This document shows, piece after piece, positions 22,117 through 24,719 of a DNA stretch of 26,717 bases (position 1 is its first letter; every line of letters starts with the position of its first letter). The translations under genes were made by a program, and so were the position numbers. The stretch is from positions 1-26,717 of the forward strand of contig NZ_CP124035.1 of assembly GCF_030436345.1 (NCBI RefSeq), written 5' to 3'. The notes below the pieces were generated by a model. It had not been told where the DNA came from, did not search any database, and saw only the letters and a program-made list of their open reading frames with translations. The stretch is from [Borrelia] tanukii. Its GTDB lineage: Bacteria; Spirochaetota; Spirochaetia; Borreliales; Borreliaceae.

Positions 22117-22812
22117 ATGGGTGCAAATAACTTCAGCTCTTATATTGAAAATTCTAAAGTCTATTCGGATTATATAATATTAAAACACAAAATATTACTT
22201 ATTCCTGTTCCTATAATAAAAATTGCTATGGGAGAAGATCTAAAAATTTTTGAAATAGATTTTCAAGACAAACATAAAGATTTTTCAGGATATATTCAAT
22301 TAAATGAAAAATCTTTATACATAAATGAGAGCATGAGTCTTGAAAATAAAAGATTTACAATAGCAAAACACTTGGGGCATTATTTGATGCATAAAGATCA
22401 AATTAAAAATTTATCTAAAAATGAAAACTATTACAATGAGCCTCAAGATAGTCAAATGATAACAGAAGCCAATATATTTGCAGCAAACATTTTAGTTCCA
22501 ACAACTACATTAAAATTAAAATTATCTCAATATAAATCTAGAGAGTGCCCTCAAAAAACAATAGCAAAAGAATTTCAAGTAACCGAAAATACAATTTATT
22601 TAAAATTAAGCATACTTAATGATCTTAACAAGATAGACAAAATAAAAAAGAATAAAAAATTTTTTAAAATTAAAAACACAAAACATAAAATAGAAACTAA
22701 CATTTGCCTCCACAAAACAGATAAAATTAAAGAATCAATAGCTCTTGATTTGGAAAAATATGAACTTGAAAAAAAAGAACAAATTAAAAAAATATTTGAA
22801 GATCTAGAGTAA
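22117..22812 (+). CDS. ImmA/IrrE-like protein with a degenerate metalloprotease site (bbb26-like)
   Basis: A 231-residue protein whose middle follows the ImmA/IrrE (COG2856) metallopeptidase pattern: ENKRFTIAKHLGHYLMH at 76-92, TEANIFAANILVP at 116-128, then IAKEFQVTENTIYLKLSIL near 149-167, matching the family's usual order of zinc helix, EAxxFAA helix with third ligand (E117), and terminal helix-turn-helix-like segment. The HEXXH site is altered: where the family has IAHELGH this protein has IAKHLGH, losing the first zinc histidine (K84) and the catalytic glutamate (H85). A Lys/Glu-rich tail of ~60 residues follows. No signal peptide is visible. I recall that bbb26 of B31 was reported hard or impossible to delete together with bbb27. 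It is best read as a non-catalytic homologue. Confidence 0.8.
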   Translation: MGANNFSSYIENSKVYSDYIILKHKILLIPVPIIKIAMGEDLKIFEIDFQDKHKDFSGYIQLNEKSLYINESMSLENKRFTIAKHLGHYLMHKDQIKNLSKNENYYNEPQDSQMITEANIFAANILVPTTTLKLKLSQYKSRECPQKTIAKEFQVTENTIYLKLSILNDLNKIDKIKKNKKFFKIKNTKHKIETNICLHKTDKIKESIALDLEKYELEKKEQIKKIFEDLE

Positions 22813-22821
22813 AAAGCTTTT

Positions 22822-23373
22822 TTAAATTGAAAACTTTTTGAGTATATATTCCATCTTTACATTAGCCAAGACCAAATAATCTTTACTCTTAATAAGAGAA
22901 TCTAAATGGTTTTTTGCAATTACAATCCAATACTTATTATCCATAAATTTCTTAGCAGTTGGAAAATTTATTTTTAATGAAAAATTTTTCAGAATTTTTT
23001 GTTTTTCAAGATAAGATAAGACTTCTGCCTTAAAAGATGCTCCTTGGGTCAAACTATAAGCAATAAGTATTCTATATAATTTTTTATTATAAATAAAAAG
23101 ATCTTTAATAAAATTAATATTACTATTGAAATTAGATTCATCAACGTAAATATACGCACTATTTTTGGGATCGTTTAAACTTTCAAAATCATATGAACGA
23201 TATAAATGTTCATAGTCTTTGATTTTAAAATTTGAAATTTTCAAATCAGGATAATTCATCAAAGATGTTAAAAGAGTTAAATTTATTTTATCTTTTTCTG
23301 GTATTTTAACCAAAGAAATTGTCGAACAGCCGTAAAGCAATAAAAAATAAATGGAAATTAAAAACTTCTTCAT
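22822..23373 (-). CDS. Putative lipoprotein (bbb27-like)
   Basis: A 183-residue predicted lipoprotein: MKKFLISIYFLLLYGC, with C16 lipidated. The start of the mature part (STISLVKIPEKDK) resembles that of the lipoprotein at 21077-21583 (STISFEGIPELKKD), hinting at common descent, though the rest is not obviously alike. It contains mixed beta/helix segments, including IAYSLTQGASFKAEVLSYLEKQKIL and KYWIVIAKNHLDSL. No strong ribosome site is visible before the ATG. It is convergent with the metalloprotease-like gene, nine bases away, where AAAAAGCTTTTTT may act as a minimal terminator. Reported in B31 as essential or jointly essential with bbb26 (recalled). Function unknown. Confidence 0.82.
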   Translation of the reverse strand: MKKFLISIYFLLLYGCSTISLVKIPEKDKINLTLLTSLMNYPDLKISNFKIKDYEHLYRSYDFESLNDPKNSAYIYVDESNFNSNINFIKDLFIYNKKLYRILIAYSLTQGASFKAEVLSYLEKQKILKNFSLKINFPTAKKFMDNKYWIVIAKNHLDSLIKSKDYLVLANVKMEYILKKFSI

Positions 23374-23474: not shown

Positions 23475-24719
23475 ATGAGTTATTATGCGCTAAGCAAAAT
23501 ATTTCTATATTCTGGATACCTTGTTATTGGATTTTTATCTTTTACAATTTTCAATAAAAACTTACGAAATAAAATCAGAAAGAAATTAAAAAACTTATAC
23601 TTTTTATATTATTTAACTTTTTTTGCTCTTTTTATAATCAGCTCAAATTTATCTTATTACTTTACTGAAAAGCAATTATTGGAAAATTTTAATATTTTTG
23701 AAAAAGAATTTTTTGAAATACATAAGGTAAACGAACAATTTTTTCAAAAATACCTACTAAATTTTCCAGTACCAATAAGAATGGAATTGATGTCAAAATT
23801 TAATCCAATATATACAGTGTTTAATGCTAGTTTTGAGAAATATGCTAAAAACATAGGTAAAAGTTCTTATGAAATTCAAACAAATTATAAAAATTACGTT
23901 AAAGCAACAAATTCAGAAATTAAAAGAAAATTAGAACAAATAAAAGAAAATATTACTCCTATTTATAATAAATATAAATTACCTATTCTAAATGGAGAAA
24001 ATACAGAAATAAGTATCGATGCGAATGGGAATATTATTCCTGTTACAAAAAATACAAACGGACAAGTAACAGAATTGCTGTTTTACGATCAAAATTATAA
24101 TTTAATTCCCTTTAGAGAATTTAAAAACTATAAAGTTAGATTTGATCTAATTCCAGAAAATAAAAATATATATTTCAAAGAACTAATAAATGTTTACTAT
24201 ATTGATGAAAACAATATTACTACTCCTATAGAGTATTATAAAAATAATATAGAGACTAGCCCTTATTACATAGACTTGCAAGAAGAGAAAGACAATTTTC
24301 TTAAAACAATAAAAATCAAAAAAGAGTATGGTTTATACCTTGAGCAAAAAAAGCAACTACAACATTTAACTGAGAATGATAAACTTGATGATTTTAAAGA
24401 ATTTTTAGCAAAAAATAATAATATTTTTTCATTAAATACAATATTTTCTAACGGCAATCCAATATTTACTTATGCCATAAATGTAAAAGCAAAAAGTATT
24501 ATAAATTATTTAATAACAAAAGAATTTAATATTAATTTAACAAATCAAAGTTCTCAAACAGCTCTTCATAATGCCATAATTCAAAAATATGAATTAAAAT
24601 TTATTAAATCACTTATTAAAAAAGGCGCTAATCCAAATATCAGAGATAGCGACAATAAACTGCCTATAGATTACTCTGATAAAACTAGTGAGATCTATAA
24701 ATATTTAATTGGCATTTAA
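23475..24719 (+). CDS. Membrane-anchored ankyrin-repeat protein (bbb28-like)
   Basis: A 414-residue protein with two N-terminal membrane segments (about 9-27 and 43-60) joined by a basic loop (NKNLRNKIRKKLKNL), then a ~260-residue mostly helical and beta region of unknown type, and C-terminal ankyrin repeats. The ankyrin part (about 326-414) shows NPIFTYAINVKAKSIINYLITK, QTALHNAIIQK...FIKSLIKKGANPNIRDSDNKLPIDYS: the TALH and GANPN signatures are clear. With two membrane passes and a basic loop between, both termini would be on the same side; the charge pattern (basic loop cytoplasmic) suggests the bulk faces the periplasm. AAGGA precedes the ATG, and TGATATAAT at 23439-23446 is a possible extended -10. 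Ligand unknown. Confidence 0.85.
   Translation: MSYYALSKIFLYSGYLVIGFLSFTIFNKNLRNKIRKKLKNLYFLYYLTFFALFIISSNLSYYFTEKQLLENFNIFEKEFFEIHKVNEQFFQKYLLNFPVPIRMELMSKFNPIYTVFNASFEKYAKNIGKSSYEIQTNYKNYVKATNSEIKRKLEQIKENITPIYNKYKLPILNGENTEISIDANGNIIPVTKNTNGQVTELLFYDQNYNLIPFREFKNYKVRFDLIPENKNIYFKELINVYYIDENNITTPIEYYKNNIETSPYYIDLQEEKDNFLKTIKIKKEYGLYLEQKKQLQHLTENDKLDDFKEFLAKNNNIFSLNTIFSNGNPIFTYAINVKAKSIINYLITKEFNINLTNQSSQTALHNAIIQKYELKFIKSLIKKGANPNIRDSDNKLPIDYSDKTSEIYKYLIGI

Follow-up and report, generated by a model that had tools for sequence, protein, structure and literature searches.

BBB26 of the Borreliaceae plasmid cp26: a stand-alone M78-fold protein without the peptidase active site

The closest described relatives of BBB26, the product of gene bbb26 on the Borreliaceae plasmid cp26, are the ImmA/IrrE (PprI) proteins of the M78 family (Pfam PF06114, COG2856), whose genes are commonly paired with XRE-type regulators (PMC2701414). 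The copy analysed comes from [Borrelia] tanukii (contig NZ_CP124035.1, positions 1 to 26,717), and this whole stretch of 26,717 nucleotides, called the window below, is a cp26 plasmid. The M78 active site combines an HExxH motif, with two zinc-binding His and the catalytic Glu, and a third zinc-ligand Glu in a further motif, xExxANxFA (aligned with 'IETLCN' in IrrE). The M78 peptidase CapP (7t5t) keeps HExxH, unlike BBB26 (alignment). Like BBB26, the transcription factor PrpR of Mycobacterium tuberculosis (paralogue RamB) combines an M78-like fold with HEXXH residues that have not been conserved, and it binds coenzyme A (CoA) (PMC6765138); PrpR, however, includes XRE, GAF-like and 4Fe-4S parts, whereas BBB26 stands alone, with 231 residues and two non-conserved Cys. 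Rir of Streptococcus thermophilus (COG2856) acts non-proteolytically (PMC7907104), as is proposed here for BBB26, but unlike BBB26 it carries a predicted HEXXH, and its target is a repressor, Crh.

With the ImmA/IrrE proteins BBB26 shares the sequence profile, the predicted fold, the helix-turn-helix (HTH)-like end of the domain and scaffold residues. The first zinc His, the catalytic Glu and the third zinc Glu are missing, as is an invariant Arg; BBB26 also has neither a GAF-like domain nor an XRE partner, whether fused or detected with the HTH_3 profile, and carries a lysine-rich C-terminal tail. The gene lies as follows.

22117..22812, plus strand: bbb26 orthologue, encoding a 231-residue M78-fold protein, very probably a pseudopeptidase (translation; Pfam E 3.6e-24; B31 counterpart at NC_001903 21898-22593).

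The frame opens with ATG and its motif stretch reads RFTIAKHLGHYLMH; that of B31 BBB26 reads RFTIAKYLGHYLMH. The Peptidase_M78 profile matches residues 41-165 at the E value given, with 85.3 bits (family cut-off 22), and together with a predicted IrrE-type fold this bears out the family assignment made in the original prediction. The B31 coordinates are shifted by 219 relative to the window, and the window's copy is 99.0-99.3% identical to those of three Borreliella tanukii plasmids. RefSeq calls the B31 product 'ImmA/IrrE family metallo-endopeptidase', and 'metallo-endopeptidase' is the name on 57 of the 60 cp26-type copies among the matches listed (123 records matched; RefSeq/GenBank). Membership of BBB26 in DUF955 was noted in 2007 (PMC2229028); the excerpts of that paper do not mention the loss of the site, and among the open-licence papers listed on bbb26, BBB27, Borrelia and IrrE, and ImmA/IrrE/M78 proteins in general, none reports it in its title or abstract beginning. 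The loss falls on these positions.

22366..22380, plus strand: destroyed HExxH, Lys84-His85-Leu-Gly-His88 (translation, Borreliaceae alignments, codon counts).
22459..22461, plus strand: codon 115, Ile, the place of the lost third zinc-ligand Glu (alignments with relatives, codon counts).
22345..22347, plus strand: codon 77, Asn, where 99/99 aligned database relatives have Arg (alignment).

Lys84 replaces the first zinc His and His85 the catalytic Glu, the exchange of HE for KH that had been predicted, while the second His (His88) is retained. The comparison covered the window's protein and 21 database clusters, 22 Borreliaceae proteins in all without the partial record P0013, and the codons at 30 loci; three genomes added later bring those with the gene to 33. 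Position 84 is Lys in 16 proteins and Gln in six (codons: Lys 21, Gln 9), and position 85 is Gln in 11, His in nine, Asn in one and Tyr in one (codons: His 13, Gln 12, Tyr 4, Asn 1), with His88 and His92 invariant in all proteins and at all loci. Position 115 holds Thr (10), Val (6), Ile (3), Ala (2) or Lys (1) in the proteins and Val (11), Thr (11), Ile (4), Ala (3) or Lys (1) at the loci. The family Glu at this position is one that we take to be Glu113 of Deinococcus deserti IrrE.

The original claim that the rest of the motif is kept thus holds for His88, but the Glu of its EANxFAA helix is Glu117 (kept in 21 of the 22 proteins, Lys in P0020), which is not the third zinc ligand; that Glu belongs two residues upstream and is lost in 22/22. 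Arg at position 77 occurs in 0/21 Borreliaceae rows, which mostly have Asn (alignment A4, made up of 21 Borreliaceae rows and 99 relatives, with P0010 and P0025 left out); by position this residue matches Arg85 of Deinococcus geothermalis PprI, which lies in a sulfate/single-stranded DNA (ssDNA) cavity (PMC10904395). Neither an intact HExxH nor the third Glu was found in the 22 proteins or at the 30 loci, and the HExxH of bbb26 is absent in all 33 genomes carrying the gene, so that no copy examined shows the intact motif which the original prediction named as its refutation. Because the loss recurs in 22/22 proteins, 30/30 loci and the three later genomes, it is neither local nor due to chance. 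Since only one of the three zinc ligands remains and the catalytic Glu is gone, BBB26 is very probably a pseudopeptidase.

Control domains from outside the Borreliaceae keep the site. The Pfam profile, applied at E 1e-8 to 296 genomes of the spirochaete phylum, gave 99 places in non-Borreliaceae genomes, several of them near-copies of each other. HExxH is present in 80/80 of the domains fetched first and in 17/17 of the later ones that cover it (97/97 together), two of the 19 later domains being fragments without the motif region; the third zinc Glu is present in 80/80 and then in 18/18 covering the position, and is missed by one interrupted copy. A further 100 of 100 database relatives retain HExxH, with all four residues kept, although this control is less independent, the set having been gathered by a profile that includes HExxH proteins. 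In a tree of 189 rows, from which the trait columns had been removed and in which the Borreliaceae were reduced to nine rows, these nine fall on one side of a branch (Shimodaira-Hasegawa-like approximate likelihood ratio test, SH-aLRT, 99); its 138 columns do not settle their sister group. Since the Borreliaceae share one branch and all lack the site, the simplest reading of the sequences is a single loss before the Lyme and relapsing-fever genera split. The best-scoring HExxH homologue, P0024, has its closest relatives in genome contigs at six loci in Proteobacteria and Firmicutes, and no clear donor was found among these six.

The median ratio of nonsynonymous to synonymous substitution (dN/dS, Nei-Gojobori) of bbb26 is 0.200 over 153 Lyme-group pairs and 0.094 over 66 relapsing-fever pairs; the between-group median, 0.244, comes with high dS and was not used. 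These values point to purifying selection since the site was lost, and one old loss followed by such selection would make BBB26 a fixed pseudopeptidase. The original prediction of a pseudoprotease retained for binding is supported, on firmer ground than it had itself, by the family-wide loss and the constraint; the binding is inferred. Phe80, Ala83, Gly87, His88, Ala118, Asn119, Ala122 and Pro128 are unchanged in 21/21 Borreliaceae rows. Positions that are invariant in Borreliaceae but vary or are missing in relatives concentrate at 6-46, 129-140 and 205-231, and further ones are dispersed in between. The stretch LLIPVPIIKI (within residues 16-36, window 22162-22224) is identical in 22/22 proteins and more hydrophobic than in relatives, and residues 16-36 are a possible membrane or partner contact.

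The gene is present in 33 of 36 Borreliaceae genomes; the remaining three are single-contig assemblies and for that reason probably do not include plasmid sequences. At 29 of 30 loci the genes run bbb24-bbb25-bbb26-bbb27-bbb28 and bbb26 converges with bbb27; the remaining locus (L004) stops within bbb27 at a contig end.

22822..23373, minus strand: bbb27 orthologue, a convergent lipoprotein gene (PMC2229028) that adjoins bbb26 in 30/30 loci.

The essential position claimed for the gene has to be shared with this neighbour. Single bbb26 and bbb27 mutants were recovered without growth defect in a wild-type background, a double mutant was never obtained, a plasmid with resT only was unable to displace one with resT, bbb26 and bbb27, and loss of bbb26 in the absence of cp26 slowed doubling to 9.5 h (PMC2229028). 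Thus bbb26 is essential only jointly with bbb27. A transposon library contained no insertion in bbb26 and three in bbb27 (PMC3485029). From the unique insertion sites reported there for cp26 (26,498 bp; 302 in the table, 250 in the figure legend), 6.6-7.9 insertions are expected in 696 bp, and at an assumed uniform density the Poisson chance of none is 0.0004-0.0014, or about 0.01-0.04 once 29 genes are allowed for; loss of bbb26 may have some cost, though the gene is one half of a pair. In Borrelia recurrentis A1 (NC_011252; L151:1616-2302) bbb26 is interrupted by an in-frame stop after about two thirds of its length and its C-terminal end is altered, beside an open bbb27 of 188 residues; the gene is stop-free in the other 32 genomes that carry it.

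The two products were called homologous in PMC3485029 and unrelated by Jewett et al. (PMC2229028). No similarity was found when the two sequences were compared (best local score 15.0 bits, E 1.1), and a search of viral contigs gave no relatives of BBB27. The Listeria Mtz-Tim system, a secreted protease with a lipoprotein partner, was considered as a parallel and rejected, Mtz being a metzincin and no M78 protein (PMC8235301). The median dN/dS of bbb27 is 0.258 in the Lyme group and 0.357 in the relapsing-fever group, faster than bbb26, which is odd in a jointly essential pair. The published double deletion, unlike either single one, also removed the following stretch.

22799..22871, no strand: 73-nucleotide stretch, B31 22580-22652 (deletion coordinates from PMC2229028).

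The structure model of BBB26 has an IrrE-type fold, aligned with soluble IrrE, PprI and CapP (VIA-align), and these parts of it bear on function and location.

22549..22620, plus strand: HTH-like helices closing the M78 domain, residues 145-168 (Pfam match reaching the profile end; model helices 145-153 and 157 onward).
22708..22806, plus strand: predicted C-terminal helix, residues 198-230, beyond the M78 domain, with Borreliaceae-invariant residues (model, block values 62-79 over 201-230 of the predicted local distance difference test, pLDDT; alignments).
22186..22242, plus strand: residues 24-42, a probable transmembrane stretch according to the literature (Psort claim, PMC2229028; model).

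The HTH-like segment singled out in the original prediction is real but nothing special: the Pfam match ends at residue 165, which is profile position 123/123, so that the helices are the normal last part of an M78 domain, and an HTH_11 match there is weak (E 0.005, below its cut-off). Residues 24-42 are modelled as a loop, a helix at 33-39 and the run-up to a strand at 43-47, with block pLDDT of 91, 96 and 91 over residues 21-50; in the model, the published 'transmembrane' stretch is within the predicted soluble fold.

The reading that we favour, with a probability of roughly 55%, is that of a site-dead M78 fold which binds at the inner membrane and whose loss is buffered by BBB27. BBB26 would act by binding rather than cutting, its fold sitting in the cytosol and its attachment to the inner membrane being provided by a partner or by the conserved hydrophobic N-terminal stretch; the protein is, then, probably cytosolic and peripherally membrane-attached. 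A protein partner would be held by those stretches whose conservation is confined to Borreliaceae (about residues 16-36, 129-141 and 198-231), and this putative partner may serve envelope or growth homeostasis. BBB27, an unrelated periplasmic lipoprotein, would buffer the loss of BBB26, so that only the double loss is lethal. A bolder version is offered tentatively, as something we doubt: a stand-alone M78 pseudopeptidase, fixed throughout a bacterial family after losing scissors and repressor, might have moved to the inner membrane and become half of a two-gene safety pair with a periplasmic lipoprotein, the two monitoring, each from its own side of the membrane, a checkpoint of the envelope or of growth. 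If true, this would be a new use of the M78 fold.

Several points weigh against the favoured reading. No partner or ligand of BBB26 is known. Single B31-A bbb26 mutants grow normally (PMC2229028), so the role is not indispensable alone, and the synthetic lethality of the pair is deduced from mutants that were not recovered. Unless its stop is a sequencing error in one genome, B. recurrentis A1 is a natural bbb26 single mutant. The structure model is weak at residues 1-3, 102-105 and 183-201, and one built from the 22 Borreliaceae sequences alone reached a pLDDT of 44.1 and was discarded. Taken over 19 residues, the highest hydropathy mean per protein is 1.47-2.00 among the 22 from Borreliaceae, whereas in 100 relatives its median is 0.96 and its maximum 1.75, and the membrane-fraction result of 2007 could mean an integral protein.

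That last possibility was the 2007 proposal, with a span of the inner membrane at residues 24-42 and a periplasmic M78 fold. The Psort prediction and the recovery of BBB26 in the membrane fraction and not in the soluble fraction (PMC2229028) speak for it, as does a stretch more hydrophobic than in relatives; the model, however, places a loop, a seven-residue helix and a strand run-up there with high pLDDT, within the part of the model that aligns with soluble IrrE, PprI and CapP, the fractionated protein was tagged and driven by a strong promoter, and proteinase K treatment shows that BBB26 is not surface-exposed and nothing further on its side (PMC2229028), which leaves an integral periplasmic protein unlikely. 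The membrane fraction also counts against a non-proteolytic antirepressor, which by analogy with Rir would bind a repressor and block its oligomerisation, helped by the HTH-like helices. Rir does act on its repressor without cutting it, and COG2856 genes often pair with XRE regulators, as noted above. Yet among 36 Borreliaceae genomes, some of them assemblies without plasmids, the HTH_3 profile (E 1e-3; other HTH families were not searched) matched a single frame of 265-279 residues per genome in 18 and nothing in the remaining 18, and found no XRE-type repressor; in the window's genome the match is ParB, and two further weak candidates lie beyond the threshold, at E 0.014 and 0.035. Pfam detected no XRE domain in the four neighbours of bbb26 scanned. 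Because the classical XRE partner is absent by this profile, the antirepressor, and with it the repressor sequestering of the original prediction, is weakened and appears distinctly unlikely. Small-molecule sensing, the other role modelled on a described relative, would have the cavity of the dead fold hold a ligand such as a CoA derivative that alters partner contacts, as in mycobacterial PrpR. The PrpR pocket and cluster, however, use parts for which BBB26 has no counterpart (no GAF-like or N-terminal XRE domain by Pfam, Cys not conserved), and the match in fold is common to all M78 proteins; a sensor of this kind seems improbable. Sensing of ssDNA as in PprI is not favoured either: the Arg85 counterpart is lost and Pfam finds no GAF-like domain, though Phe80 (PprI Phe88) is kept (PMC10904395).

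A metallopeptidase with a rebuilt metal site, using for instance His85, His88 and His92, could draw on the invariance of the last two at 30/30 loci, but His85 is found at 13/30, with Gln, Tyr or Asn at the other 17, Glu at position 85 or 115 occurs at 0/30, and casein cleavage tests of BBB26 were negative (data not shown in PMC2229028), all of which makes it highly improbable. The lethality of the double deletion might also stem from loss of an element in the 73-nucleotide stretch, which both single mutants retain, with BBB26 and BBB27 having no overlapping role. Over 30 aligned loci the invariant columns number 6/24 in each of three blocks from 22813 to 22884, compared with 9-12/24 in the four preceding blocks (the end of bbb26) and 3-9/24 in the three following; the stretch shows no unusual conservation, no terminator and no Rfam family. 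Its loss might complicate the synthetic-lethal interpretation, although no functional feature is seen there, and we consider this explanation quite improbable.

What is new here is a stand-alone M78 pseudoenzyme; a dead-site M78 fold was already known from PrpR, and the surprise is moderate. The 'metallo-endopeptidase' name and the protease tests of 2007 invite a search for substrates, but with a dead site in all copies examined this would mislead, and looking for a partner or ligand is the better test; the value of the result lies in shifting work on the cp26 pair from a protease to a binding protein. Part of the question of why cp26 is indispensable becomes directly testable, namely the target of BBB26, the face of the membrane on which BBB26 binds it and the reason that BBB27 is able to substitute for BBB26. 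With one old loss and many descendants, BBB26 is also a clean case of evolution from enzyme to binder.

Other observations concern further M78 matches, neighbouring genes and doubled copies. In the 36 genomes the M78 profile also matches a pair of long frames on each chromosome (589-635 and 641-653 residues) and in one case a frame of 519, the score of the 589-635-residue frame barely exceeding the family cut-off in many of them; from their position and length we take the two long frames to be PepF-like and FtsH-like HEXXH enzymes. Kinship of the lipoproteins BBB24, BBB25 and BBB27 is neither claimed nor excluded: profile comparisons gave probabilities of 9.0 (24-25), 35.5 (24-27) and 0.04 (25-27), with single-comparison E values of 9.5e-4, 6.8e-5 and 0.85, and the top two alignments begin at the signal peptides and have long gaps. 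Two copies of bbb26 are found in each of the B. lusitaniae plasmid records NZ_CP132462, NZ_CP124047 and NZ_CP132469 (44.9-49.6 kb), and also on contig C3 of genome G030, whose second copy was kept outside the counts; the pairs look like a doubled cp26, whether real or an assembly effect. The conserved neighbour of bbb26 and bbb27, bbb28 (window 23475-24719), encodes a protein with ankyrin repeats whose N-terminal part is hydrophobic.
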